Part shown: positions 15,854 through 33,869 of the stretch, one piece after another
Layout: each line of letters starts with the position of its first letter
How positions within the stretch are numbered: the stretch's first letter is position 1
Origin: Elusimicrobiota bacterium
GTDB taxonomy: Bacteria; Elusimicrobiota; Elusimicrobia; F11
Direction of reading: 5' to 3'
Assembly (NCBI GenBank): GCA_003140895.1
Contig: PLLH01000053.1
Location: 1 to 33,869, forward strand
Length of the DNA stretch: 33,869 bases
Notes under the pieces: model-generated
What the model saw: the letters and a program-made list of their open reading frames with translations, nothing else
Databases searched by the model: none
What the model was told of the DNA's origin: nothing
Made by a program: the position numbers and the translations under genes

Positions 15854-18124
15854 ATGTTCAAGAAAATAAAGCACATTCACTTCGTTGGGATTGGCGGAAG
15901 CGGCATGAGCGGCATCGCCGAAGTGCTGCTTAAATTGGGCTATGGCGTGACGGGCAGCGATTTGGTGAAAAACGCCGAGGTGTCGCGTCTGTCCGATATG
16001 GGCGCTGTCGTTTCCATCGGCCACGCCGGAAAAAATATCGGGAAGGCGGATGTGGTTGTGACCTCCACCGCCGTTTCAAAAGACAATCCGGAAGTGAAAG
16101 AAGCGCAAAAGCGCGGCGTCCCGGTTATTCGCCGCGTTGAAATGTTGGCGGAAATCGCGCGCCTGAAATACACCATCGCCATCGCCGGAACCCACGGGAA
16201 AACGACCACCTCTTCCATGGTGGGGCAGGTGTTTAAATTCGGCGGTTTGGATCCCACCGTCATTGTCGGCGGGCGGCTTAAAGCGGTCGGAACCGGCGGG
16301 GTTCTTGGCGCCGGAGATTACCTGGTCGCCGAGGCGGACGAATCCGACGGATCGTTTCTGAAACTCTCTCCCACCATTAACATCATCACCAACATCGACA
16401 ACGATCATTTGGATTACTACAAAACAAAAGAGAACCTTAAATCCGCGTTTGTCGAATTCGCCAATCATATTCCCTTTTACGGTATGAACATTGTGTGCTG
16501 GGAAGATCCCATCGTTCGAAAAATTCTGCCGCTCATCAACCGCCGCTATCAAACCTATGGGTTCGATAAAAAGTGCGACCTGCGGGCCACGGATCTCGTG
16601 ACCGATCCGCGCGGGTCCACGTTCACGGTGACCCGGAACGGCCAGGTTCTTGGGCCCGTGACGGTTCCTCTTTATGGGAAGCACAATGTGCTGAACGCGT
16701 TGGCCGCGTTGGGAGCCGGGCTCCAAGTGGATTTGCCGTTTCGTTTGGCGGCGGAGGCGCTCTCTCAGTTCGCCGGCGTGGGGCGCCGGATCGAGGTGAG
16801 GGGAGAATCGCGCGGAGTGACAGTCGTGGACGATTACGGCCATCATCCGACGGAAATGAAAGCCACGATCGCGGCTCTCCGGCAGCGCTGGCCCGAACGG
16901 CGACTGGTGGTGCTCTTTCAACCGCACCGTTTCACGCGCACGCAAGCGCTCTACAAAGATTTCGCCGCCGCTCTTAATAGTGTGGACCGGTTGGTTCTTA
17001 TGCCGATTTATCCGGCGGGGGAAAAACCCATTAAAGGCGTCACCAGTCAGCTCATCGCCAAAAATCTGAAAAAGAAGAACTGGGAATGGTGGACGGGAGA
17101 TGAAACGCTGGGAAAATTACTCGTGGATCTGAAATCCGGCGACGTGCTCTTGACGCTTGGGGCCGGTGACGTCTGGAAAATCGGTGAAAAATATTTAACC
17201 GCCGCGTCCCTCCTCGCTCATCAAATCAAGGCGGCGGTGCCCAGTTTGGATGGACGAATCAAATCAGAAGAACCGCTTTCTCGCCACTCAACGTGGGGGA
17301 TCGGCGGCCCCGCCGAGGTGTTCGTGGAAGTTCATAACGTGGGCGAATTGAATGGAGTGACCCGCTTTTGCCGCGAGCGAAAAATCTCCACGCTTATTTT
17401 GGGGTGGGGCTCGAACGTGCTTCTGCCGGATGAAGGGATTCGCGGGTGCGTGCTTCGCCTTCGGGGGGATTTTGAAGCCGTTCATTTCGATGGAAATCAG
17501 GTGCGGCTGGGAGCCGGCGTTCATTTGCCGAAACTCTCCAAACGGTGCGCGGAAAAAGGCCTCGCCGGAACGGAAGCGCTCGCGGGAATTCCCGGGACCA
17601 TCGGGGGGGCGCTGGTCATGAACGCGGGAACGCCTCGCGGCGTGATCGGAGACGTGCTCGTGTCGGCCGACATATTAAATGAAGACGGATCTGTCTCGAC
17701 GTTGGCGAAAGACAAGATCCGTTTCGGTTACCGGGAGAGCAGTTTGGCGGGGAGCTGTATTGTCGGGGCAGTGCTCAACCTCAAATTTTCCACGGATCAG
17801 CAGGTTCAGGAGCGTATTGCAACAGAGCTCACGCATCGGGAGAAAACGCAGCCGCTCGGGACCAAAAACGCCGGGTCTGTTTTTCGAAACCCGCCGCAGG
17901 ATTACGCGGCTCGCTTGATCGAGGCGGCGGGCCTCAAAGGCCAGTCCATCGGCGGCATGAGGGTATCGCCCAAACACGCCAATTTTTTTGAAAACACCGG
18001 CGGCGGAACGGCCAAAGACGCCCTGGCTCTCGTCGAATTCGTGCGATCCACCGTTAAAGAGAAATTTAATATTGAACTTCAGCTGGAAGTCAAAATCGTC
18101 CGTCAGCCGCCTTTGCCGTCATGA
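15854..18124 (+). CDS. murC/murB: MurC-MurB fusion: UDP-MurNAc L-alanine ligase / UDP-GlcNAc-enolpyruvate reductase
   Basis: Bifunctional cytoplasmic enzyme of 756 residues that performs two consecutive steps of peptidoglycan precursor synthesis. Residues 1 to about 455 are MurC: N-terminal Rossmann GIGGSGMSGIAEVL (12-25), ATP loop GTHGKTTT at 112-119, DNDHLDYY (182-189) and DDYGHHPTE (326-334). Residues about 463-750 are MurB: FAD-binding LGWGSNVLLPDEG and LAGIPGTIGGALVMNAG (577-592), Y626-R627, proton-donating S675 in NAGSVFRNP and E745 in QLEVKIV. The NAGSVFRNP and GMRVSPKHANFF blocks indicate the B. subtilis-like type II MurB. No linker of note separates them. It overlaps ddl (ATGA). The order MurC then MurB is the reverse of the reaction order. 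No frameshift is seen, so the fusion looks genuine. Confidence 0.96.
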   Translation: MFKKIKHIHFVGIGGSGMSGIAEVLLKLGYGVTGSDLVKNAEVSRLSDMGAVVSIGHAGKNIGKADVVVTSTAVSKDNPEVKEAQKRGVPVIRRVEMLAEIARLKYTIAIAGTHGKTTTSSMVGQVFKFGGLDPTVIVGGRLKAVGTGGVLGAGDYLVAEADESDGSFLKLSPTINIITNIDNDHLDYYKTKENLKSAFVEFANHIPFYGMNIVCWEDPIVRKILPLINRRYQTYGFDKKCDLRATDLVTDPRGSTFTVTRNGQVLGPVTVPLYGKHNVLNALAALGAGLQVDLPFRLAAEALSQFAGVGRRIEVRGESRGVTVVDDYGHHPTEMKATIAALRQRWPERRLVVLFQPHRFTRTQALYKDFAAALNSVDRLVLMPIYPAGEKPIKGVTSQLIAKNLKKKNWEWWTGDETLGKLLVDLKSGDVLLTLGAGDVWKIGEKYLTAASLLAHQIKAAVPSLDGRIKSEEPLSRHSTWGIGGPAEVFVEVHNVGELNGVTRFCRERKISTLILGWGSNVLLPDEGIRGCVLRLRGDFEAVHFDGNQVRLGAGVHLPKLSKRCAEKGLAGTEALAGIPGTIGGALVMNAGTPRGVIGDVLVSADILNEDGSVSTLAKDKIRFGYRESSLAGSCIVGAVLNLKFSTDQQVQERIATELTHREKTQPLGTKNAGSVFRNPPQDYAARLIEAAGLKGQSIGGMRVSPKHANFFENTGGGTAKDALALVEFVRSTVKEKFNIELQLEVKIVRQPPLPS

Positions 18125-19086
18125 ATTACATGCTCCTCATTCGTTGGCTTCAGGCGCGTCGGATCGCCGTTTTGAAAGGCGGGAGTTCGTCGGAGCGGGA
18201 GATTTCGCTTAAAACGGGAGCCGCCGTCCTTCAGGCGTTTAAGCGCCTGGGCATTCGAGCCGTCGGCATCGATGTCCAGTCGAATTTGCCGGAGGTGCTT
18301 CGGAAGAAGCGGATTCAGTTTTGTTTCAACGCCCTTCACGGAACCAATGGTGAAGACGGGCGCGTTCAAGGATGTCTGGACGTGATGGGGCTTCCCTACA
18401 CGGGCGAGGGCGTCTTTGCCAGTGCCGTAGCGATGGACAAGCATTTGTCGAAGACTCTCTTTAAGAAAAATGGCGTGCCGACCGCTCCGTGGATGCTGGT
18501 TCACCGTTTGGATTATCTGCGTTCCAAAAAAGAGGTGTTGGCGGCGGTTCGCCGGTTTATGACGCGAGGGCCGTTGTTTATTAAACCCAACGATCAGGGC
18601 TCGGCGATCGGCGTTTCCAAAGTGGAACGCCCGCGCGAGATCGACAAGGCGCTCAAGGCTTGTTTCGCTCTTTCATCGGGAGCGATGGTGGAGCGGTTCG
18701 TGACGGGGCGTGAGCTCACCGTCGGGATCTTGGGGGAATGCGTTCTCCCGGTTATTGAAATTATTCCCCAACATTCTTTTTATGATTTTCATTCCAAGTA
18801 CGCGAAGGGAGGCTCGAAGCACATTGTGCCGGCTCCTCTTTCACGAATGATGTCGATGCGCGCTCAAGTGTTGGCCTTAAAGGCGTTTCAAGCGATTCCC
18901 TGTTCGGTTTACGGACGGGTCGATTTGCTTTTGCAGCCCAACGGCCAAATGAAGGTGCTCGAAGTGAACACGATTCCCGGAATGACCACGACGTCGCTTC
19001 TTCCGGATGCGGCCAAGGCCGCGGGCATGGATTTTGATAAGCTGGTGTTGGAGATTATCCGGCTTTCTCTGAAGAAGAAAAAATAA
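18121..19086 (+). CDS. ddl: D-alanine--D-alanine ligase
   Basis: ATP-grasp enzyme that makes the D-Ala-D-Ala dipeptide for MurF; 321 residues, the normal length. Landmarks are LKGGSSSEREISLKTG (18-33, Ser/Glu substrate site), ALHGTNGEDGRVQG (71-84), the ATP-grasp Lys in LFIKPNDQGSAIGV, and the closing VLEVNTIPGMTTTSLLPDAAKAAG with its Mg-binding Glu and Asn. The ATG overlaps the MurC-MurB stop as ATGA, so translation is coupled. Position between murB and ftsQ is the standard division-cluster order. Confidence 0.97.
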   Translation: MNYMLLIRWLQARRIAVLKGGSSSEREISLKTGAAVLQAFKRLGIRAVGIDVQSNLPEVLRKKRIQFCFNALHGTNGEDGRVQGCLDVMGLPYTGEGVFASAVAMDKHLSKTLFKKNGVPTAPWMLVHRLDYLRSKKEVLAAVRRFMTRGPLFIKPNDQGSAIGVSKVERPREIDKALKACFALSSGAMVERFVTGRELTVGILGECVLPVIEIIPQHSFYDFHSKYAKGGSKHIVPAPLSRMMSMRAQVLALKAFQAIPCSVYGRVDLLLQPNGQMKVLEVNTIPGMTTTSLLPDAAKAAGMDFDKLVLEIIRLSLKKKK

Positions 19087-19100
19087 ATTTCACCATTTTT

Positions 19101-19107
19101 AAGGGAG
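19101..19107 (+). promoter_or_regulatory. Shine-Dalgarno that points to a CTG start for ftsQ
   Basis: AAGGGAG is followed by 6 bases and a CTG at 19114. No ATG, GTG or TTG occurs in that frame between the upstream stop (19084) and the GTG at 19297, which would delete the cytoplasmic tail and half of the membrane helix. Confidence 0.6.
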
Positions 19108-19113
19108 ATTCCT

Positions 19114-19986
19114 CTGCGAAGAAAATACAAGTCGCTTCTGGGGTCGAAGCGAACCAGCTATTTTGTTGAACCCAAAGCCTCTCGCCGTTCGGGGGGGGAG
19201 AAAAAACGCTCCCAAAAGGTCCGTTTTCGATCGAAATACGCCTCCTCCGTTCTTCATCAAACCGGCCGCCGCTTATGGACGCTGACCAAAACGGTCGTGG
19301 TGATAGGGGCGGTGGGGTGGGCGAGCTACAAGGGAAACCAATTTTGGAACAGGAGCCCCGCCATTCGGGTGGCGCGCATTCATTTCTCAGGAAACATTCC
19401 ACCCACGTTAAAAGAGCATCTGCCGTTTTCCATCGGGCAGAATCTTTTTCTTCTTCATCCCAAGCAGATGTCCCGGGATTTGTTGGCTCGTTTTCCGGAG
19501 CTGAAAACCCTCACCATCTCCCGGCATCTTGACCGCACGGTTATCGTGGAGGGACGTTTCCGCGTTCCGTTCGCTCTCATGAAGCAAAACGAGAAGGAAA
19601 TGGGGGTGGATCATGACGGCGTGTCATTCCCGATTCAAGATTACAACCGGCCTCTCATGGCGCTCCCGATGATTCATGGGCGCGCCGACGCCGCGGTTCT
19701 CAAAGAGATGGCGGCTTCTCTCCTGCTTTTGGAAAAACAGGTGCCTGCTTTTTATTCCCAGATAAAATTCCTGGAAACTGATAATATGAGGCCGTTGGTC
19801 GTCGGACTCTCCGACGACGTCCTGATTCAATGGGGCGAGATGACGACGGAGAGTGTTGTCGACCGAGCGGAAAATATCCTAAGGTTGAGGGATCATTTTA
19901 GTCCGAAGAAGAAGCTGGCCCTGTTGCGATTCGTAACGACGAGCCGGGTTGTCATGGACGCCGATTGGATGCCGGTGGGAAAGTAA
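19114..19986 (+). CDS. ftsQ: Cell-division protein FtsQ (POTRA domain), probable CTG start
   Basis: Bitopic inner-membrane division protein that bridges early and late divisome components; 290 residues if begun at the CTG at 19114. The first 50 residues are strongly basic (RRKYKS, KASRRS, KKRSQK, RFRSKY), fitting a cytoplasmic tail. A single membrane helix follows at about 54-71 (LTKTVVVIGAVGWASY). A POTRA-like domain starts at about 85 (IRVARIHFSGNIPP...) and continues through the FtsQ beta domain. Starting at the first conventional codon, GTG 19297, would cut into the helix and lose the tail, and that codon has no good ribosome-binding site. Sequence similarity to FtsQ is weak, but the topology and the place between ddl and ftsA make the call secure. 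The start remains uncertain. Confidence 0.85.
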   Translation: MRRKYKSLLGSKRTSYFVEPKASRRSGGEKKRSQKVRFRSKYASSVLHQTGRRLWTLTKTVVVIGAVGWASYKGNQFWNRSPAIRVARIHFSGNIPPTLKEHLPFSIGQNLFLLHPKQMSRDLLARFPELKTLTISRHLDRTVIVEGRFRVPFALMKQNEKEMGVDHDGVSFPIQDYNRPLMALPMIHGRADAAVLKEMAASLLLLEKQVPAFYSQIKFLETDNMRPLVVGLSDDVLIQWGEMTTESVVDRAENILRLRDHFSPKKKLALLRFVTTSRVVMDADWMPVGK

Positions 19987-20007
19987 TTTTTTTGAGGGGG
20001 ACGACGC

Positions 20008-21288
20008 GTGTCAAAGCCTGAAATCATTGCGGGGTTGGATGTGGGAAGCGGTCAGATCGCCTGCGTGATTGGCCGGAGAAATCCGGATCAAGATCAAGTG
20101 GAGATCGTCGCTGCCGCCCGCCAGCCGTGCCGGGGCCTTAAAGGCGGCGTGGTCATCAACATCGAAGAAACGGCGCTCGCCATCACCCGCGTGGTTGAAA
20201 TGGCGGAAGAGATGTCCAAGGAAACCGTCCGGGACTTGATCGTCGGTATCCGCGGGTCTCACACGCAAACGTTTAACCATCATGGGGCCATCAACATCGC
20301 CCGCACCGATAAAGAAATCACCACCGACGACGTATCCCAAGTCATTGAATCCACGAAAGCCGTTCCCATCTCGACCGACCGGGAAATCATTCACGTTATC
20401 CCTCAGGATTTCGTGTTGGACCGCCAGCAAGGCGTTCCCAATCCGGTCGGCATGGAGGGGTCTCTTTTGGAAGTCGAAGTTCATATCGTCACGGCCGGGT
20501 CCAGCCATCTCAATAACATTTGGAGATCCATTAATCACGCCGGGTTCGGAATTCGGGAGCCCGTGTACGGTCTTCTGGCTGTCGGCGACGTCGTTGTGAC
20601 GCAAGAGGAAAAAGACTTGGGATGCCTGCTGATCGATTTGGGCGGGGCCACCACGGGTCTCGCCATTTACAGCGATGGCGGAGTTCGGTTTACGAAGGAA
20701 ATCCCGTTGGGGGCGGATTCGATCACCACGGATTTGGCCCACGGCCTTAGGACCTCGATTTCACAAGCCAAAATGGTGAAAGAACGGTATGGCACCGCGA
20801 TTCGTCCGAGCCGTAAGCACGCGCTGGTTTCCGTCGCCGGTCGAGATGAAGAAATCGACATCGTGGATGATGAGATCACCTACACCAGCGTCGATGGCCG
20901 GACCACGCGGGAGATTCAGAGAACAACTCTTTTTGAATTCATCGCTCCGCGCGTCGAAGAAATTTTTACGCTCGTCAAACAGGAAATGGATAATTCCGGG
21001 ATGGCGGAACAAATCGTGGCGGGCGGCGTGATTTTGACGGGAGGCGGATCGATGATGCCGGGGTTGGTGGAGGCGGCGGAGAAAATTTTGGAGCTTCCGG
21101 CCCGCCAGGGGCTTCCCCAAAATATTTTGGGGCTTTCCGAAGCGGTGTCGCATCCCAGCTACGCCACGTCCATTGGTCTCATCAATTTTCATTCGTTCGG
21201 CGATTGGCCGCGAAATCACAAATCGGGCCGGCGCGCGGGCGGTTCCATGTTTGGCCAGATCAAATCCATGTTCCTGGACCTTTTTTGA
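20008..21288 (+). CDS. ftsA: Cell-division actin homologue FtsA
   Basis: Actin-fold ATPase that tethers the FtsZ ring to the membrane and recruits later divisome proteins; 426 residues from a GTG start with GAGGGGG upstream. The phosphate-1 loop is AGLDVGSGQIACVIG (8-22), phosphate-2 is LLIDLGGATTGLA, and the adenosine motif is GGVILTGGGSMMPG. The SHS2-like 1C domain is the region around 85-165. The last residues, GGSMFGQIKSMFLDLF, form the amphipathic membrane-targeting helix. It lies 21 bases after ftsQ and 47 before ftsZ. Confidence 0.97.
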   Translation: MSKPEIIAGLDVGSGQIACVIGRRNPDQDQVEIVAAARQPCRGLKGGVVINIEETALAITRVVEMAEEMSKETVRDLIVGIRGSHTQTFNHHGAINIARTDKEITTDDVSQVIESTKAVPISTDREIIHVIPQDFVLDRQQGVPNPVGMEGSLLEVEVHIVTAGSSHLNNIWRSINHAGFGIREPVYGLLAVGDVVVTQEEKDLGCLLIDLGGATTGLAIYSDGGVRFTKEIPLGADSITTDLAHGLRTSISQAKMVKERYGTAIRPSRKHALVSVAGRDEEIDIVDDEITYTSVDGRTTREIQRTTLFEFIAPRVEEIFTLVKQEMDNSGMAEQIVAGGVILTGGGSMMPGLVEAAEKILELPARQGLPQNILGLSEAVSHPSYATSIGLINFHSFGDWPRNHKSGRRAGGSMFGQIKSMFLDLF

Positions 21289-21335
21289 TTCCACATCTCA
21301 CATATCTGTTTTTTCGCTGAGGAGAACCGCACCGC

Positions 21336-22454
21336 ATGACACGCATTAAATTTACTGATGATTTTAAAGATCAACCGGCCGTCATTCGCGTGATCGGGAT
21401 GGGAGGCGCTGGTGGAAACGCCGTCAACCGGATGGTGGAAGCCGACGTGTCCCAAGTTGAATTTATCACGGCCAACACCGACGCCCAGGCGCTTCGAAGG
21501 AGCCTGTCTCCCGTTCGCATTCAGCTGGGAGAGAAATTGACCAAAGGTCTTGGGGTGGGGGGAAATCCCGCTCTGGGGCGCCAGGCGGCGGAAGAATCCG
21601 CGGACCGGTTGAAGGAAGTGGTGAGCGGCGCCGACATGCTTTTCATTACGGCCGGGATGGGCGGCGGAACAGGAACCGGGTCGGCTCCTTTTGTGGCGAA
21701 GCTCGCGAAATCGCTCACTCCGGCGCCCTTGGTTGTGGCGGTGGTCACGCGTCCCTTTCAATTTGAAGGATTGGTGCGGGCCAACCAGGCGTCGGCCGGC
21801 ATTGAGGAATTGCGGCCGTATGTCGACACCTTGCTTGTCATCCCGAATGATCGTCTTTTTGAAATTATCGATGAGAAAACGCCCACGTTGGAGGCCTACC
21901 GCGTGGCCGATGACGTCCTCCGGCAAGCGATGCAGGCCATCACCGACGTCATCACCACCCACGGCTTGGTGAACGTGGATTTTGCCGACGTGAAAAGCAT
22001 TATGGCCGGAGCCGGCGAAGCGCTCATGGGCATCGGCAATTCCTCCGGCCCGGACCGGGCGCTCAGCGCCGCTCGCCAGGCCGTTCAATCCCCGCTTTTG
22101 GAAAATGTGTCGATTGATGGAGCCAAAGGCGTCTTGATCAACATCACCGGCAATAAAAACGTGACCATGTTCGAGGTTCGTGAAGTGATGGACTTTATCG
22201 GCTCGGCCACCTCCGCTCATTCTCACGTGTTTTATGGGCAAGTTTTTGACGAGTCTCTGGAAGATAAACTGAAGGTGACGGTGATCGCCACGGGGTTCCC
22301 CACGCGCGTTAAATCCCAAGCCCTTGACCGAACCGCCGCCAGAAAACAGGCGGCCCTTCAAAATTCCCAGGCGGCTCCGCTCCCTGCCCTCACGTCCGAT
22401 GACGACCTCCGCCGCCCGGCTTACCTGCGTTTACGCAATCGAAAACTGAAATAA
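21336..22454 (+). CDS. ftsZ: Cell-division tubulin homologue FtsZ
   Basis: GTPase that polymerises into the Z-ring; 372 residues. N-terminal GMGGAGGNAVNRM (21-33), the tubulin signature GGGTGTGSAP at 109-118, and the T7 synergy loop NVDFADVKSIM, which completes the GTPase site of the neighbouring subunit. After the C-terminal domain comes a short linker of about 35 residues. The conserved tail DDDLRRPAYLRLR then binds FtsA and other partners; it is followed by a basic NRKLK extension. The short linker is at the low end for the family. GAGGAG upstream serves as ribosome-binding site, about 10 bases before the ATG. Confidence 0.98.
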   Translation: MTRIKFTDDFKDQPAVIRVIGMGGAGGNAVNRMVEADVSQVEFITANTDAQALRRSLSPVRIQLGEKLTKGLGVGGNPALGRQAAEESADRLKEVVSGADMLFITAGMGGGTGTGSAPFVAKLAKSLTPAPLVVAVVTRPFQFEGLVRANQASAGIEELRPYVDTLLVIPNDRLFEIIDEKTPTLEAYRVADDVLRQAMQAITDVITTHGLVNVDFADVKSIMAGAGEALMGIGNSSGPDRALSAARQAVQSPLLENVSIDGAKGVLINITGNKNVTMFEVREVMDFIGSATSAHSHVFYGQVFDESLEDKLKVTVIATGFPTRVKSQALDRTAARKQAALQNSQAAPLPALTSDDDLRRPAYLRLRNRKLK

Positions 22455-25867: not shown

Positions 25868-28800
25868 ATGATACGGAAGATTGTCGCCCTAACCTGTGGC
25901 CTTTTATTTTTTACCTCCAACGTGGCGTGTCTCTATGCCGTTGAAACCAATGTGTGGGCGGAACGGCGGCGCCATTCGGAGGCCGCGCGTCAGAACGAGA
26001 CGTCACCTCAGTTGGCTTCGATCAAAGGGCTCCCGACCAGCGAAATTTCTTTTAATCGGCTTCTTCACAATATTATGGGGGTTGGGGAATCGTTGGGAGC
26101 GCTGTCGAAACACTCCTCCATCACTTCCACTTCCCACGCCTCGCTCCAGAAACATCCTGTTCCGTTTATTGAGAACATTCCCCTGAATGCCGGTTCCATT
26201 CGGGACGTTTATGTTTCCCCAACCTCGCCAGGGGAATCCTCGCGGCCGTTTATCTTCCTGATTCAAGACATCCATCAGAATTACGAAGCGCAGAAAAATA
26301 TCGTCGCCATCCTTCAGTCATTGGCGGAAGCGGACCCGGGAAAAAACAGAACCCGAGGTTTGTTGGTTGGAGTGGAAGGAGCCTTTGGCCCGCTCGATTT
26401 CAATTTATACCGCCTTTTCCCTGATAAGAAATTAATTCGGAAAGTCGCCGACTATTTTCTTGAGAAAGGGAAAATCGCCGCGCCGAGTTATGTGGGGCTG
26501 ACATTGGAGGGGACGGGTTCGTCTTTTGTCGGTGTCGACGATCCTCTTCATTACCAAAAGAATGTGAAAGCCTATTTGACGGCGGCGGCGTCGAAAGAGG
26601 TGTTGAATAAAAAATTGGCGATCTCGCGGAGCCATCTCGCTACGTTAAAAAGATCGGGGTTAAACGCCGACCTCGCTTTTCTGGATGACCGGCGCGCGGC
26701 CTTTGAGACAGGGAAGTTGGGGTTAGGGGAGTATGTGAAGGTCCTGTTTGAGCGATCTCAGCAGCCTCGTGAGTTGGTTCTTGAGAAATTTCAAAACGCG
26801 TATGAAATGGAGAAAACGCTCGATTTCTCCCGGGTTGAAAGTGAGCGAATGCGCGTCATAGAGAAACTCGCTTCGCAATTAAATCCGTCCGATTTGAAGT
26901 CTCTTTTTTTGAGCGGTTTGGCCTACCGGACTGGGAAAATCAGTTACGCCGATTATTATCAAACTATTAAATCTCTCTTGGACCGGGCTTCTATTTCTTT
27001 GGCCCAAGCGCCTCACTTTGACCGTTACATTCGTTATGTGATTTTGGCTGACGGCATCAACGCGGAGTCGCTTTTGGCCGCCGTCAAACGGCTTGAAACA
27101 GACGTGGTGGCCTCGTTGATTCAAACGAAGGAAGAACGGGCTTTGGTTGATCGGTCTCGTTACCTCTCTCTGGTGGCCAAGTTGTTGGAATTTGGGCTTG
27201 TTCCTGAGGAATGGACGGAATACAAGAGCTGTCATCGGACGACTCTCGTGGGAAGTGAGGATTTTTCCGCTGAGTTGACGCCATTTGAACAGTTTTACGA
27301 AGAGGCTGATGTTCGAAGTCAAAAAATAGTGGAGAGGATGATGGAGGGGGCACACCCTACCCTGGTGGCTCTTCTCGTGGGAGGGTTCCACACGCCTCAG
27401 ATGACGCAACTTCTGAGGAAGAAGGGTCTTTCGTACGCTGTGGTTCAGCCCCGGATTTCGAAAGTGGAAGACGCGTCGGGGACGTCGTATCTGTCGATTT
27501 TTTCAAAGGAAAAAACACCCATCGATCAGCTCTTCGCCGGCCAAAAACTTTTCTTGGCTCCGCATTCAACCGCCTTGGGAACCTCCGTGTTGATGTCAGC
27601 GCTAAGAACGGGGGCGTCGTTTTTAGGAGTGATGTCTCTTCTATCTCGCCGCGCGGGAGAAGAAATCCCGGCAGGGGTGCCGGTCGTTATGGCAAGTGGT
27701 GACACGCGCGTGGACGTGCAGATGCCCGGCCTGGACGAAACGGTTGAGGCTTCTATAGGGCGGGATTCCTCTGGGGAGATCGTTGCGATTCCTGGCGAGC
27801 CTGTTATCACGGTTCGTTCGACAAAGAAGCTGTTTTCTTTCTTGCGGATGTGGACGGCGTCTCTTCGGGACTCGTGGTCTGAGAGGGAGAAAATTTTTTC
27901 CAACGAGTTTGTCGACATTCACAATCCTCAATCTAATGTCCAGCGATTTGTGCGGCGATCCGTGATTGGGGTGGTTCGGTTGTCCTCCACCGTGGGGTAT
28001 GGGGTTGGCCTTCTTGGAAGTCCTGCGCTCATGGTGGCGGGTTTGATGTCGCTTCTTGTTCAGGTTTCTGTCCAGTTATCGTTTGTTTCCGTTCTTCTCC
28101 TTGGGATCCCCTCACTTTTTATCGGTGATTTATTGGCGATCGCCTCCGCGCGCCGGTTCTCCGTCGGTTTTAATGTGGGGACTCATTTCCTTTACAATTT
28201 TCTGGTGGCGCCTCTTTTGACTCTCGTGATTGGGTGGACGCCGCTGTCGGCTTCTTTACCCGATGATAATCCGGACGCCTCTCCTTTTCCCGACGGGACG
28301 GGGGCGGCATCCATTGCGGCGGCGGGACACACGGAGCGAAACGAAGACGCTTATTTCGTTATGGAACTCCCCGGCGGGATTCACGTGGCGGGCGTGTTTG
28401 ACGGAGTGGGGGGTGACGAGAGCGGCGAGATCGCCAGCCGGATCGCCCGGGATTCGATCATGGAGGAATTAAAGGGAATTTCAGGGACGGAGACAAAAGA
28501 TGAAATGATCGGGATATTGAGCCGAGCCATGGTCAACGCCCGGGACGCCATCAACAGTCGATTGGAGGGAAAGAAGAGCGGAACGGCGGCCACTGTGATG
28601 GTGTCGTTCCCGCCGGGAGATGTCTTCATTGCGAGTGCGGCTGACACGCGAGCTTATCTTTTGGATGAACAAGGGCGTTTCCGCCCGCTCACGGTTGATA
28701 ATTCAAGAGGAAATGCCGACGGTTCTCCGTTTGTGATGGATGAGTCGTCCCTTCAGGCCAATCTCCAGGAAAGTGAACAAGAGTCGCTGGACGAAATTTC

Positions 28801-31300
28801 CAGCTTGCAGGATTTATCCGCGTTAAGAGACCCAACCAAATTTATAGTTAGAAATGTAATCGCCAATTCGCTGAGGACAGGGTCGGCGGCGAACGCCTAT
28901 CGTCCAGTTCTGACGGTTATAAAAGTGAAGCCGGGAGAACGTATTTTTCTGACGAGTGACGGAGTCCATGACCCTCTAACGCGTCAGCAATTGCTTGAAT
29001 TAACAAACAAACCATCAATGCCCCCGTTGGCGTTGGCTCAAGGAATCGCTAATGAAGCGGCTCGTGAGGTGGCGAATCCTGAAAATTATAGATGGAAAGG
29101 AGGGGGTGGGGATGACGTGACGGTTGTCGTGGTTGAAATCGGGCATGGATCTCATCCGATGACACCCATGGTGAGGACAGACGGAATCCAATTGAAGCAA
29201 CCGCCGATCCAGCCTAAAAATGAGCCGCCCGCTTTAAAGAAAACAGGAGTGTTTCGTCCTCGGGGTCCCGTAAAAATCGAAGGGCTCCGTTCCAAGACGG
29301 AAGCGAAGGACCATGCGATAAAAGCGGCGAAAGAGTCGGAGGAGGGCCGGATATTGGTGTTTGCGTCTCCTATCTTATCTACCGATGACGCGAATAGGCT
29401 GCACCGTATGAGTTTGGACGAAGTTTTTGCCGGGATTGAGAGCGGATGGATAGGACTCATTGACTATCGGGATGTGGGTGGAAAGAATAGGCCCGGCCCT
29501 CATTTGGCCGAGATTGATGAGTCAAAAAAACCGGCGGCAGAAAACACAGCAACACCCAAACAGCCGGAAGGAGTTCTTCCTCCAAACGAAGCGCCCAAAC
29601 GGGAAGATAAAAAATTGCCGCTGCGCCTTGAGAGTCTTAATAGAGCGCGATCTGCAGCGTGGGCCATCTCTAAAGAAGGAACGGAGGCGCTAACGGTGTT
29701 TGATCGCCGGTTGGATCTGCTGGCCGCCAGGGTTTCGTCCCCGGTTGATTTAGAGGAGGTTCTGCGAGGATTGGATACGCATGACATCGCGTTTTTCACA
29801 ACGGGGGCGATTTCCTATTTTGCCCGGACCCATATCGACCCGGTCCTTATTCGTTCAAATGTTGACGCAATACGGCAGGGCGAAGCCGATGCCGAAGCGC
29901 GCGCGAAGTCACTTTATAGCGGATTTCCTCTTAGCTTATCAGGCGTTGTGGATCATCAAGGAACGGTTCGTTTCTTTGGAGAGATGAGTGAGCTTCCGTC
30001 TGATCTGGATGACGCATTGAGTCGAGGTGAGCTGAGGCAATTTGACATTACGTATAGGGGAGCTGCTGAGGGAAGGGCTCGAACCATCGTTTTGGACGTT
30101 GCGATTCCACTCAGCGCGGAAATCGCACTCCGGAAGACGATGCAAGACTTTAACGCGAGTAACGAGAGCGGCTCGGCTCTGACGACCCCCGCCTCGATCC
30201 TTCGGGCTCTTCGGTTTCTGTCCTTTGTTGGCTTTAATGCGACATCGCTTTCTGTTGGATTTCTGGTTCTCTTGATTGAATTTCCCCAATTTTTCAATCC
30301 AGCTCGATTCTTAAACGCGCATGTGAACCGGACCCCCTCCGATAAAGTGGTGAGGGGGATTGGAATCGCTCTCATTTGGGCTGCGATGATCGGTTTTTCC
30401 TTTTGGATGGCCCAGCCGTTCTCACATGAGTTCAGTACCGGTCTTGTGGTTCGCTTTATGACCAGTCTCTTCATCACCAATATTCTCGCCCACGGATTCT
30501 GGATGGCGGTGTTCGGCCGGGCCGCGTTGAATCAAACCCAGCTTTCAATGATGGAGTTGGCGTTAAAGAGCAAACAGGGGAAAATCAGCCGCGCCGAGTT
30601 GGTGGCGTCCTTGTTGCGGTTCTTGCCGAAAGCGGACGCCGTGGGAATGGACATGAACGCCCGCGGGCGCGCCATGCGTTCCCTTGTGACAGATGTGGAC
30701 GTCAATGATGGGACGGCGTTGGCGGAAGGCGTGGCTCTTCTGGGATTATTGGAAAACTCCCGCTCTAGCGATGTTCAGCAAATGCGATCCACTCTTATCG
30801 ATATTCAGCGGGATCCGAAATCGCCCAACATCCTTGTTCGCTTGATGAATCCCACTGGAGATGCGGGTGCCCTTGGGAAAGAAATAGGCGCTCTTCAAAG
30901 CGGTAAACGACCGATGGACCGGGTTCTCATGCTGGTTACAGAGAATAATATCCAGGGGTCCGATCTTACGAAACTGAACGAGCGGTGGAACCCGTCGGGT
31001 ATTTTCCTTCGATTTAATAATGGAACAACAGAGTTAACGCTTCAAGGGATTCGGTCGTCCGTGAACGCGGAAGAACAGAAACAGGCGCGGGTCAAAATCT
31101 TTATTGATCAACGAGCCGAACGGGCCCTGTCGCCTTCCGTGATGTCCGCCTTACGGGATTTGGAAAAGAACAAAGACTTGGTTGACCTTTATCTGACCGT
31201 GGGCGACATTCTCACTATGGCCATCGCCATTCGCATCTCCATTTCTCAACTCACCCACCTCAACATGATGCGGGAAACCTTGATCGCCATCCAAGCGTAA
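25868..31300 (+). CDS. Giant membrane protein: signal peptide, possible TIKI/ChaN-like domain, PP2C phosphatase domain, unknown C-terminus
   Basis: A single uninterrupted 1810-residue protein. Residues 1 to about 24 form a signal peptide (MIRKIVALTCGLLFFTSNVACLYA). About 125-560 is a domain with QDIH at 133-136, GVEGA at 168-172, GVDDPLHY at 222-229 and VGGFHT at 504-509; spacing and the GX2H-type motif recall the TIKI/TraB/EreA/ChaN superfamily, an inference. About 697-790 holds three or four membrane helices. About 811-1092 is a complete PP2C Ser/Thr phosphatase: RNED 824-827, FDGVGG 844-849, SGTAATV 904-910, DTR 926-928, SDG 1030-1032 and DD 1082-1083. A proline/lysine-rich linker (about 1210-1250) follows, then an unrecognised region, three membrane helices (about 1447-1471, 1495-1515, 1525-1549) and an unrecognised C-terminal domain. 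It has its own promoter. Similar oversized hypothetical proteins occur in Omnitrophota, as far as I recall. Confidence 0.85.
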   Translation: MIRKIVALTCGLLFFTSNVACLYAVETNVWAERRRHSEAARQNETSPQLASIKGLPTSEISFNRLLHNIMGVGESLGALSKHSSITSTSHASLQKHPVPFIENIPLNAGSIRDVYVSPTSPGESSRPFIFLIQDIHQNYEAQKNIVAILQSLAEADPGKNRTRGLLVGVEGAFGPLDFNLYRLFPDKKLIRKVADYFLEKGKIAAPSYVGLTLEGTGSSFVGVDDPLHYQKNVKAYLTAAASKEVLNKKLAISRSHLATLKRSGLNADLAFLDDRRAAFETGKLGLGEYVKVLFERSQQPRELVLEKFQNAYEMEKTLDFSRVESERMRVIEKLASQLNPSDLKSLFLSGLAYRTGKISYADYYQTIKSLLDRASISLAQAPHFDRYIRYVILADGINAESLLAAVKRLETDVVASLIQTKEERALVDRSRYLSLVAKLLEFGLVPEEWTEYKSCHRTTLVGSEDFSAELTPFEQFYEEADVRSQKIVERMMEGAHPTLVALLVGGFHTPQMTQLLRKKGLSYAVVQPRISKVEDASGTSYLSIFSKEKTPIDQLFAGQKLFLAPHSTALGTSVLMSALRTGASFLGVMSLLSRRAGEEIPAGVPVVMASGDTRVDVQMPGLDETVEASIGRDSSGEIVAIPGEPVITVRSTKKLFSFLRMWTASLRDSWSEREKIFSNEFVDIHNPQSNVQRFVRRSVIGVVRLSSTVGYGVGLLGSPALMVAGLMSLLVQVSVQLSFVSVLLLGIPSLFIGDLLAIASARRFSVGFNVGTHFLYNFLVAPLLTLVIGWTPLSASLPDDNPDASPFPDGTGAASIAAAGHTERNEDAYFVMELPGGIHVAGVFDGVGGDESGEIASRIARDSIMEELKGISGTETKDEMIGILSRAMVNARDAINSRLEGKKSGTAATVMVSFPPGDVFIASAADTRAYLLDEQGRFRPLTVDNSRGNADGSPFVMDESSLQANLQESEQESLDEISSLQDLSALRDPTKFIVRNVIANSLRTGSAANAYRPVLTVIKVKPGERIFLTSDGVHDPLTRQQLLELTNKPSMPPLALAQGIANEAAREVANPENYRWKGGGGDDVTVVVVEIGHGSHPMTPMVRTDGIQLKQPPIQPKNEPPALKKTGVFRPRGPVKIEGLRSKTEAKDHAIKAAKESEEGRILVFASPILSTDDANRLHRMSLDEVFAGIESGWIGLIDYRDVGGKNRPGPHLAEIDESKKPAAENTATPKQPEGVLPPNEAPKREDKKLPLRLESLNRARSAAWAISKEGTEALTVFDRRLDLLAARVSSPVDLEEVLRGLDTHDIAFFTTGAISYFARTHIDPVLIRSNVDAIRQGEADAEARAKSLYSGFPLSLSGVVDHQGTVRFFGEMSELPSDLDDALSRGELRQFDITYRGAAEGRARTIVLDVAIPLSAEIALRKTMQDFNASNESGSALTTPASILRALRFLSFVGFNATSLSVGFLVLLIEFPQFFNPARFLNAHVNRTPSDKVVRGIGIALIWAAMIGFSFWMAQPFSHEFSTGLVVRFMTSLFITNILAHGFWMAVFGRAALNQTQLSMMELALKSKQGKISRAELVASLLRFLPKADAVGMDMNARGRAMRSLVTDVDVNDGTALAEGVALLGLLENSRSSDVQQMRSTLIDIQRDPKSPNILVRLMNPTGDAGALGKEIGALQSGKRPMDRVLMLVTENNIQGSDLTKLNERWNPSGIFLRFNNGTTELTLQGIRSSVNAEEQKQARVKIFIDQRAERALSPSVMSALRDLEKNKDLVDLYLTVGDILTMAIAIRISISQLTHLNMMRETLIAIQA

Positions 31301-31421: not shown

Positions 31422-31459
31422 GTATCCGTAAAATTTGAGCACATCCTTTGTGGAGTGAA

Positions 31460-33013
31460 ATGACAGAAAAATTGACATTGAATCAACGCGCCAGCGGCGT
31501 GTTGCTTCATCCAACGTCCCTTCCCGGCCCTCACGGGATCGGAGATTTAGGCGCGGAAGCCTTTCGCTTCGCCGACCTTCTTCAAGCCGCCGGCCAAACG
31601 TGGTGGCAGATGTTTCCTTTGGGCCCTTTGGGCATCAGCCACTCGCCTTATCAAACCTTGTCCGCTTTCGCCGGGAATCCTCTGCTCATCAGTTTGGATC
31701 GTTTTTGCGAGGCGGGGCTTCTCCGCCGGGAAGATTTGAACCCCGTTCCCCGGTTTAACTCGTCTTGCGTCGATTACGCGGCGGTTTTTAACTATAAAGA
31801 ACCTCTGTTGAGGAAAGCGTTTGAAACGTTCAAGAAAAAGAAAATGGGGTCTCGCCGGAGCGGTTACGACGCTTTTTGCAACCATCACGCGAGTTGGTTG
31901 AGCGATTACGCTCTCTTTTGCGCTTTGAAGGAGCAGTACGGCGGCCTTCCCTGGACCAAGTGGCCGCCGGAAGTGCGGTTGGGGAAATCCTCCACGCTGG
32001 CCCATGTCCAGGAAGAACTCAAAGACCATGTTCATTACTACCAGTTTCTCCAATTTGAATTTTTTCAACAATGGGCGGAGCTCAAACGATATTGCAACGA
32101 AAGAAAAATCGGTTTGATCGGAGACATCCCGATCTTTGTTTCGCCGGACAGCGCCGATGTCTGGGCGCATCCGGAACTGTTTTGGCTTGGGGCCGACGGC
32201 CGCCCCACCGTGGTGGCCGGCGTGCCGCCGGACTACTTCAGCCGAAAAGGCCAGCTGTGGGGGAATCCCCTCTACCGGTGGGCGGTTCTTCGCGAGCGCG
32301 GATACGATTGGTGGATCGACCGGTTTCGGGTCACGTTTGAACGCTTTGACGCGGTTCGTTTGGATCATTTCATTGGATTTGAGCGGTATTGGGAGATTCC
32401 CGCTTCAAGTAAGACGGCTCAAAACGGACGTTGGGAAAAAGGGCCCAGCGCCGATTTTTTCAATAAGGTTCTCCATGAGCTGGGACCTCTGGAGCTGATC
32501 GCCGAAGATTTGGGGGTGGTGACGCCGGAAGTGATCGCGCTTCGCGATAAATTTAATTTCCCCGGGATGCGGGTGCTGCAGTTCGCGTTTAAGGGCGGTT
32601 CCGATTCCAATTCGTACTTGCCTCATAATTTTATCAATCGGTGCGTCGTGTACACGGGAACTCACGATAACGACACCACGGTCGGGTGGTTTAAAGACCG
32701 GGGGTCCGCTTCCAGCACGCGAAGCGGAAAAGAGATCAAACGCGAGCGGAAACGGGCCTTGGATTATTTGAATTCCGCCGGGAAGAAAATTCACTGGGAT
32801 ATGATTCGATTGGCCCTGCAATCCATCGCCGATACGGCGATCGTTCCGGTTCAGGATATTATCGGACTTGGTTCCGCTGCTCGGATGAACTTGCCGGGGA
32901 CGCCGTTCGGGAACTGGAAGTGGCGGATGAAAAAAAATGCTATTAACAAGTCTGCCGTTAAACGGCTCCGGCGGCTCACCGAAATCTACCATCGAATTCC
33001 TAAAAAACCTTAA
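31460..33013 (+). CDS. malQ: 4-alpha-glucanotransferase (amylomaltase, GH77)
   Basis: Cytoplasmic enzyme that transfers alpha-1,4-glucan segments between maltooligosaccharides; 517 residues from the ATG at 31460, behind GGAG. The GH77 opening ASGVLLHPTSLPGPHGIGDLG and PLGPLGISHSPYQTLSAFAGNP are very clear. Catalytic residues are nucleophile D302 in AVRLDHFIGF, acid/base E349 in LIAEDLGVVTPEV and transition-state D403 in GTHDNDTTVGW; the VAGVPPDYFS 250s loop is present. A TTG at 31448 is the only alternative start. It lies 11 bases before glgE, so the two are co-transcribed. MalQ would lengthen or shorten the linear glucans that GlgE acts on. Confidence 0.97.
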   Translation: MTEKLTLNQRASGVLLHPTSLPGPHGIGDLGAEAFRFADLLQAAGQTWWQMFPLGPLGISHSPYQTLSAFAGNPLLISLDRFCEAGLLRREDLNPVPRFNSSCVDYAAVFNYKEPLLRKAFETFKKKKMGSRRSGYDAFCNHHASWLSDYALFCALKEQYGGLPWTKWPPEVRLGKSSTLAHVQEELKDHVHYYQFLQFEFFQQWAELKRYCNERKIGLIGDIPIFVSPDSADVWAHPELFWLGADGRPTVVAGVPPDYFSRKGQLWGNPLYRWAVLRERGYDWWIDRFRVTFERFDAVRLDHFIGFERYWEIPASSKTAQNGRWEKGPSADFFNKVLHELGPLELIAEDLGVVTPEVIALRDKFNFPGMRVLQFAFKGGSDSNSYLPHNFINRCVVYTGTHDNDTTVGWFKDRGSASSTRSGKEIKRERKRALDYLNSAGKKIHWDMIRLALQSIADTAIVPVQDIIGLGSAARMNLPGTPFGNWKWRMKKNAINKSAVKRLRRLTEIYHRIPKKP

Positions 33014-33024
33014 AGATTAATTTT

Positions 33025-33869
33025 ATGAGTAAGAGAATATTCATCGAAGCCATCACGCCGTCCGTTGACGGCGGGCGCTTTCCCATGAAGTGGGTGGTGG
33101 GGCGTCCGCTTTTGATCGAAGCGGATATCTTTGAGGGGAACGGCGGCACTCTTCGGGCGGTCATCAAATGGCGCCGGAAATGGGATGAGTCGTTTGAGGA
33201 AACGCCGATGGCTCACGTTGAGAATGACCGGTGGCGCGGAGAGATGCTGATCCAGGATAATAATCGATTTATGTTCACGATCGAAGCGTGGACGGACCGC
33301 TTCGCCACCTGGCGCGAGGATTTGATCAAGCGATTGAACCTTCATCTGGATCTTGAGAGTGAATTAAAAGAAGGCTTCAAACTGGTCCAATCTGTTCTTT
33401 CCCGCGCCAAAGGCAATGACAAAAAAGTTGTGGCCGACGTCGTGAAAAGGCTCGAGGAAAAAAAAGGAGCCGCTGACAAGGCGGCCGAGATCTATCAAGA
33501 GAAAGAACTGTTGGATCTCATGCGGCGCCTGCAGTTGAGGGAGGATGCCGTCACCTACGCTCCCGAATTCGAATTGATCGTCGACCGGCCGGCCGCCGTC
33601 ACCGGAGCGTGGTATGAGATGTTTGTCCATTCCCAGGGAACCGATCCCAAAAAACCGGGGACATTTAAAGACGCCAAAAAGCGCCTTCCCGCCTTGCGCG
33701 ATATGGGTTTCACTATTCTCTATTTGGCACCGATTCATCCGATCGGCGTGACGGCTCGGAAAGGCCCCAATAATTCACTGAACGCCGGTCCGGGTGATTT
33801 CGGTTGTCCGTGGGCGGTTGGCAGCAAAAAAGGGGGGCACACGGCGATTCACCCGGATTTGGGGACCTT
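33025..33869 (+). CDS. glgE: GlgE-type alpha-1,4-glucan:maltose-1-phosphate maltosyltransferase, N-terminal part
   Basis: The frame stays open to the window edge, giving the first 281 residues of a protein usually about 650-700 long. Residues 1 to about 105 form the GlgE N-terminal beta-sandwich (DUF3416 type: IFIEAITPSVDGGRFPMKWVVG). A helical insert follows at about 105-170. The GH13 barrel then begins with the diagnostic TGAWYEMF, ILYLAPIHPIGVTARKGPNN and GHTAIHPDLGT. The segment before the last is GPGDFGCPWAVGS, close to the family GDPGSPWAIG. GlgE extends glycogen-like glucan from maltose-1-phosphate. Catalytic residues lie beyond the window. No Shine-Dalgarno is seen; translation is probably coupled to malQ. 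Confidence 0.93.
   Translation, partial: MSKRIFIEAITPSVDGGRFPMKWVVGRPLLIEADIFEGNGGTLRAVIKWRRKWDESFEETPMAHVENDRWRGEMLIQDNNRFMFTIEAWTDRFATWREDLIKRLNLHLDLESELKEGFKLVQSVLSRAKGNDKKVVADVVKRLEEKKGAADKAAEIYQEKELLDLMRRLQLREDAVTYAPEFELIVDRPAAVTGAWYEMFVHSQGTDPKKPGTFKDAKKRLPALRDMGFTILYLAPIHPIGVTARKGPNNSLNAGPGDFGCPWAVGSKKGGHTAIHPDLGT

Follow-up and report, generated by a model that had tools for sequence, protein, structure and literature searches.

The window examined here, the whole stretch of 33,869 nucleotides from contig PLLH01000053.1 of an Elusimicrobiota bacterium, carries on its plus strand the ORF P0001 (25847..31300), which encodes a protein of 1,817 residues. It opens with GTG, and an ATG at 25868 provides an alternative start; residues are numbered with GTG 25847 as residue 1, the ATG lying seven residues later. 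All features of P0001 given below lie on the same strand. A hydrophobic, signal-peptide-like segment (residues 12-30; 25880..25936) with a mean hydropathy of 1.84 over 19 residues is followed by ETNVWAERR, a W-x-E-R motif (residues 33-41; 25943..25969). Next comes a module, here called the head (residues 129-570; 26231..27556), whose conservation and predicted fold point to the TIKI/EreA/ChaN superfamily. It displays motif I, QDIH (D141 and H143; residues 140-143; 26264..26275), motif II, VEGA (E177; residues 176-179; 26372..26383), motif III, GVDD (residues 229-232; 26531..26542), the invariant arginine R490 (27314..27316) and, with its histidine 25 residues further on, motif IV, GGFH (G512-H515; 27380..27391). 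According to DSSP of the model, residues 233-474 (26543..27268), which separate motif III from the last core strand, form a helical insertion. The module closes with SYLSIFSKEKTPIDQLFAGQKLFL (residues 547-570; 27485..27556), which holds its top conserved 20-residue block in the class and is modelled with low confidence.

An initial annotation, made from the letters of this DNA alone, had pointed to QDIH, the glutamate of GVEGA, GVDD and GGFH as marks of an N-terminal domain, and all of them were found in this ORF. Its H136, E170 and H508, counted from the ATG at 25868, are H143, E177 and H515 of P0001. Its domain end at 27460 had to be corrected, as the conserved block extends to about 27556.

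Behind the head, P0001 has a hydrophobic stretch with at most three membrane segments (residues 720-795; 28004..28231) and a PP2C phosphatase domain (residues ~830-1098; 28334..29140), which reached 38.5 bits with PF13672 against a cut-off of 24 and in which the customary Asp/Gly motifs were located. The membrane topology of this tail is ambiguous, the hydrophobic segments at residues 581, 720, 747 and 777 permitting either side. A single fixed topology with a cytosolic PP2C domain was considered and remains unsettled, since these segments are compatible with both.

Upstream in the window (15854-22454) lies a cell division cluster, in which a 756-residue Mur ligase-MurB ORF is followed by FtsQ, FtsA and FtsZ. 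Behind the giant gene, 31448-33867 encodes a 4-alpha-glucanotransferase and GlgE.

Conservation of the Head Motifs

The module was present in 105 ORFs, 95 of which spanned the profile from below position 5 to beyond position 425; 94 of these were distinct and were used for counting. D141, H143, E177, R490, G512 and H515 were each present in 94/94 homologues, as was G229 of motif III (100% of 94), while G513 was found in 93/94 and Q140 in 90/94. Position 514 is F in 79 copies and Y in 15, so that motif IV reads GG[FY]H. Spacing is likewise regular, with 28 residues from the first histidine to the glutamate in 70/94 heads and a modal 28 from the arginine to the last histidine (57/94). A second, distant set was hand-chosen from the match rows and comprised 19 places in 16 genomes, 18 belonging to other classes and one (G007) to the same class. 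There, the D, H, E, R, G, G and H positions were kept in 19/19 copies, Q in 18/19 and GGFH in 19/19, and motif III was mostly G-[VLI]-E. Given their invariance across the 94 distinct homologues, the motifs are not a matter of chance.

The TIKI/TraB/EreA/ChaN superfamily is defined by paired GX2H motifs together with an acidic residue. The second of the paired motifs is present as GG[FY]H, with its first Gly and its His in 94/94 copies, and E177, following strand 2, supplies the acidic residue. R490 is the conserved basic residue expected of the superfamily, its proximity to the pocket being inferred. The first motif departs from the textbook GX2H: its histidine is invariant and is preceded by acid-x as in GExH, and the Gly position is occupied by Gln, so that the invariant part is D-x-H without Gly. 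Thus, the heads keep the complete catalytic set; in motif I, Asp replaces Glu and Gln replaces Gly. The initial annotation had taken the late GGFH as an exact GX2H and the early QDIH as a near-match; the former holds, and the latter needs the small correction that its invariant residues are Asp and His.

Conservation of the head stops at about residue 570 (~27556). The highest-scoring 20-residue block of the module lies directly ahead of this edge, at residues 547-566 (2.91 bits per column, consensus EKTPLEKLF), and past residue 587 conservation drops to 0.15-0.7 bits per block. The EKTPLEKLF segment was not found in any of the 19 distant copies.

Predicted Fold of the Head

A first AlphaFold2 model of the head, built with 76 sequences, had a mean pLDDT of 87.4 and a pTM of 0.83. 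Strands 7-12, 44-48, 98-102 and 378-383 (model numbering) lie directly ahead of motifs I, II, III and IV, respectively, the fourth being the last core strand. This means that the motifs are located at strand ends. Clustering of H143, E177 and H515, which had been proposed as a check, is inferred from the position of each residue directly after a predicted beta strand, not from distances. The model falls below a pLDDT of 50 at model residues 416-427, the EKTPLEKLF block, which was low again in the second model.

Comparison of the first model with 964 chains via VIA-align placed C. jejuni ChaN (2g5g) at the top, with Z 10.2 and 181 aligned residues at 5.6 A. Rank 2 was an unrelated methyltransferase (Z 7.0), followed by 2qgm (rank 3, Z 7.0), EreC 6xcs (rank 4, 6.8) and 2rad (rank 5, 6.4), 2qgm and 2rad being BcR135/136-type (EreA-like) entries. 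Z values of 6-7, as reached by the EreA-like entries, are near the range that the tool labels as common. A second, longer model that included the N-terminal region (pLDDT 81, pTM 0.78) was compared with 958 chains and returned ChaN (9.2), EreC (7.2), 2qgm (6.6) and 2rad (6.5) as ranks 1-4. We give more weight to this agreement between two models than to the individual Z values. With ChaN and EreA-like entries ranked at the top in both, the alpha/beta core with a central sheet that characterises the superfamily is met. Foldseek by itself gave zero matches at E <=0.001 for the head model.

Sequence Profile Comparisons

The Pfam family Cofac_haem_bdg (ChaN, PF04187) was matched by 17/32 members with a best E of 3.8e-7. 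The window copy itself gave no PF04187 match at E 10 and did not meet the curated cut-off, and among the heads in PF04187 genome searches, only G006:C43 exceeded it (31.2 bits). The helical Pfam model PAH_ZNF598 was matched by 19/32 members (best 1.9e-6), that is, by more than ChaN; in P0001, this likeness covers residues 335-382, inside the helical insertion, and stays below the cut-off of that model. In our judgement it is a chance likeness between helices, and an identity with PAH_ZNF598 was set aside.

No match to TraB/GumN (PF01963) was seen in the window copy, where PAH_ZNF598 was the only match at E 10, or in genome G000, and erythromycin esterase (PF05139) matched neither the window copy nor any of 149 genomes including G000. 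Within the phylum, TraB matches in 3/149 and EreA matches in 0/149 genomes are too few for these to serve as comparison families. The head profile run against sequences of solved structures returned chance matches alone (a splicing factor at E 0.019, then calmodulins), and no NCBIfam model matched the head in the four proteins scanned.

Profile-profile comparison via hhalign gave P values of 0.0046 and 0.019 with three ChaN sequences, and of 0.0018 (core only) and 0.0033 (full) with 33. The result is weak overall, with a probability of at most 15%; GGFH is nonetheless in register with the GxGH motif of ChaN. In global mode against ChaN, nothing useful was aligned.

Evidence against a superfamily assignment comes from the weak hhalign and Foldseek scores, the near-common VIA Z values of the EreA-like entries, the PAH_ZNF598 matches and the missing Gly of motif I. 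One rival reading is an unrelated Rossmann-like fold that resembles the superfamily by chance, with the weak hhalign and Foldseek scores speaking for it. We regard this as very unlikely, as with each of two models all four superfamily entries rank fifth or better among about 960 aligned chains, and motif order and spacing agree with the superfamily. The initial annotation had suggested a branch of the TIKI/TraB/EreA/ChaN superfamily, to be refuted by an unrelated predicted fold or by poor conservation of the named residues. Both were examined and neither was found, so that the assignment is supported by predicted fold and residue invariance; in the profile-profile comparison that it had called for, motif IV falls into the correct register with ChaN, though the scores are weak (P 0.0018-0.019).

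Family Size and Distribution

Searching the genome of the window gave 23 match rows, which correspond to 20 separate head copies after split rows were merged, one overlap of fetched stretches was removed and a copy broken by a TAA was counted once. In the locus L148 (342-3782), an own-genome head copy is interrupted by a single in-domain stop, beyond which the frame continues. A domain search found head matches in 20/60 genomes, the window's own included, and a profile search in 53/198 genomes drawn from the phylum Elusimicrobiota. Named relatives are Elusimicrobia MAGs and Ca. Obscuribacterium magneticum, which taxonomically belongs to the Elusimicrobiota. A wider search of contigs relied on two peptide patterns and retained the 80 best of 286 relatives. 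Omnitrophota and neighbouring phyla were reached by a single pattern scan only, and absence outside Elusimicrobiota is not shown. Viral contigs contained 21 pattern stretches, none of which was a relative of the head, and plasmids gave no head match; nothing was thus seen that would suggest spread via phages or plasmids.

The head is an N-terminal module. Across the 98 copies whose upstream stop is visible, the domain begins 84 to 270 residues (median 138) past it, and in 50 copies with the ORF end also visible, the tail has a length of 227 to 5,445 residues (median 1,630). All own-genome copies lie close to the N-terminus, most of them behind a signal-like segment, and such a segment precedes the domain in 65/88 copies with a visible upstream stop at the threshold used. 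A [WY]x[EDQHKN]R motif ahead of the domain was found in 83/94 copies, at least four of the other eleven being truncated by a contig end. The longest ORFs that carry the head measure 6,085 residues in the window's own genome and 12,118 in a relative.

Two further arrangements were tried and rejected. Several heads per ORF were not supported, the apparent repeats being traced to insignificant second matches. A head in every giant ORF was also excluded, only 2/6 ORFs of at least 1,500 residues having one in a sample of the genome G006 (17 unmasked 20-kb stretches of one contig; one of the four headless ORFs has its N-terminus outside the stretch). On the minus strand of L231 (G006:C18:561001-581000), a signal-led ORF of more than 3,000 residues carries no head, so that these genomes encode at least one further class of exported giant protein.

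Diversity of the Tails

Eighteen of the 20 own-genome copies were scanned for tail domains, the broken copy and one truncated by a contig end being excluded, and nine of the 18 had a domain above the Pfam cut-off. These tails carry PP2C; GDE_C; PEP-utilisers C with GlpX FBPase; protein kinase with HATPase; AAA_11/12; AAA; PPDK_N with GNAT; AAA_5 with a WD40-type propeller; and LpxC, and a glycosidase is among the own-genome tails. In relatives, six of 14 chosen tails had a domain above the cut-off, namely ABC1 kinase with M48 and NAGPA, TPR, adenosine deaminase, aldo/keto reductase, subtilase and radical SAM. A homologous tail at another locus was found for 42/88 tails, the biggest group comprising nine loci, the window among them. 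A single type of head is therefore paired with many different tails, roughly half of those scanned being without annotation. Near the C-terminus of the 4,771-residue ORF of L151 (417-14729, minus strand), the sequence VVRGGAH stands behind a RAQALMNQI helix and possibly resembles a second, different TIKI/EreA-type last motif in the same protein.

The proposed fusion to a phosphatase held, as PP2C, yet it is one among some twenty different fusions in this genome. Together, these data show that Elusimicrobiota possess a large paralogous family of mosaic proteins, long to giant in size, with the head as their shared N-terminus, and a paralogous family with such diverse tails is beyond what a view of a single sequence could reveal. 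Other heads have tails with GDE_C, PPDK_N or a weak phosphorylase match; with the 4-alpha-glucanotransferase and GlgE genes next to P0001, these tails make a link to glycogen metabolism conceivable.

Comparison with Known Systems and Putative Function

ChaN (PF04187; 2g5g) shares with the head its sheet fold (Z 10.2 and 9.2), an H-to-E spacing of 28-29 in 31/33 ChaN proteins of the phylum, 28 being modal in the heads, and a helix with Met followed by a strand and GxGH in the register of GGFH. Unlike ChaN, which has GExH in 33/33 proteins of the phylum, the heads display Q-D-x-H, contain a helical insertion of about 240 residues and form the N-terminal part of long multi-domain proteins. EreA/EreC and BcR135/136-type proteins (PF05139) have a similar fold (Z 6.4-7.2), whereas the head stands in a fusion context and PF05139 is unmatched in the 149 genomes of the phylum. 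The sequence of acid-x-H, Glu and late His is found in Bcr135 and RRSP as well (PMC6254334).

RRSP, an endopeptidase of the TIKI superfamily, has a 2His/2Glu and Arg set formed by E3900-x-H3902, E3930, R4001 and H4030, and mutation of any of these residues abolished its cleavage in vitro (PMC6254334). The heads follow the same residue order, with modal H-to-E and R-to-H spacings of 28 and 28 compared to 28 and 29 in RRSP. They differ in having Asp where RRSP has Glu in the first motif, and, while RRSP is one effector domain inside a toxin, the head is constant, N-terminal and placed behind a signal-like segment.

The analysis shows the motifs, their invariance, the predicted fold, the N-terminal position, the family size and the tail diversity, and the activity of the head and its export are inferences. 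We consider it likely, with a probability of roughly 0.7, that this domain represents a divergent TIKI/EreA/ChaN-superfamily branch acting as a probably catalytic, exported head. The signal segment would carry the head across the inner membrane; the export that had been proposed at the outset is inferred from the presence of this segment. D141-x-H143, E177 and H515 together with R490 would form a pocket of the superfamily type at the C-terminal strand ends, which may activate water and cut a peptide or ester bond in a substrate that is still unidentified. The head would thus be the constant hydrolase part, to which each tail adds a further function of its own, in P0001 a putative PP2C phosphatase activity.

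Whether the module is metalloprotease-like or haem-binding-like, the two options originally offered, is undecided, and the intact 2His/2acid/Arg set favours a hydrolase. A ligand-binding head, serving as a sensor or carrier of haem or a small molecule as in ChaN instead of an enzyme, could draw on ChaN being the top structural and Pfam match and on hydrophobic segments soon past the head, as in a membrane sensor: they occur within the first 250 residues after the head in 60/87 copies, compared to 191/502 later tail windows. It is improbable, as the full set is invariant in 113 copies, which exceeds the needs of binding. Even less probable is a structural or sorting head that lost its enzyme function and retained the invariant residues for folding. 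Sorting modules are laid out in this way, with an unchanging head and variable tails, and PMT, a member of the superfamily, keeps the fold without the catalytic set (PMC6254334); here, it is exactly the catalytic positions of the superfamily that are invariant over the phylum.

As a special case of the preferred hydrolase reading, a TIKI-type head may cut its own chain in or near EKTPLEKLF and free the tail. The most conserved block (547-566) sits on the C-terminal edge of the module and is poorly modelled, which makes the own linker a cleavage candidate in this class of Elusimicrobiota, and the superfamily relative RRSP is an endopeptidase (PMC6254334). Against this, the segment is missing from the 19 distant copies, and high conservation with low confidence is also compatible with a site at which a partner docks, or with a packing element missed by AlphaFold. 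Without cleavage data, we hold self-processing to be doubtful. The bolder version, in which tens of giant mosaic proteins per genome carry constant exported TIKI-type peptidase heads that cut themselves at the conserved linker, is likewise doubtful; if true, tails would be released or activated, and the proteins would make up a previously undescribed autoprocessing system of giant proteins.

Huge proteins abound in Elusimicrobiota and Omnitrophota; among the six bacterial phyla richest in them, COG assignments were given for Planctomycetota only (PMC11573180). Few domains are annotated in the giant ORFs of Omnitrophota (PMC10066038), and giant genes are common in Omnitrophota and Elusimicrobia (PMC12057145). 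The proteins described here resemble them as very long, poorly annotated ORFs of the same or neighbouring phyla. A shared N-terminal TIKI-type module is not named in the relevant sections of these three papers, and no entry in the open-access literature searched (titles and starts of abstracts) joins giant proteins with the TIKI superfamily; an earlier description elsewhere is not excluded.

Giant proteins are thus frequent in Elusimicrobiota and related phyla and nearly without annotation. With a shared head whose set of catalytic residues is intact, many of them gain a family name and a sequence marker by which they can be counted; the head also extends the TIKI/EreA/ChaN superfamily by a large branch found in a new setting. 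As a soluble piece of about 440 residues, the head is amenable to expression and assay, and it offers a first clue to the function of these giant proteins.
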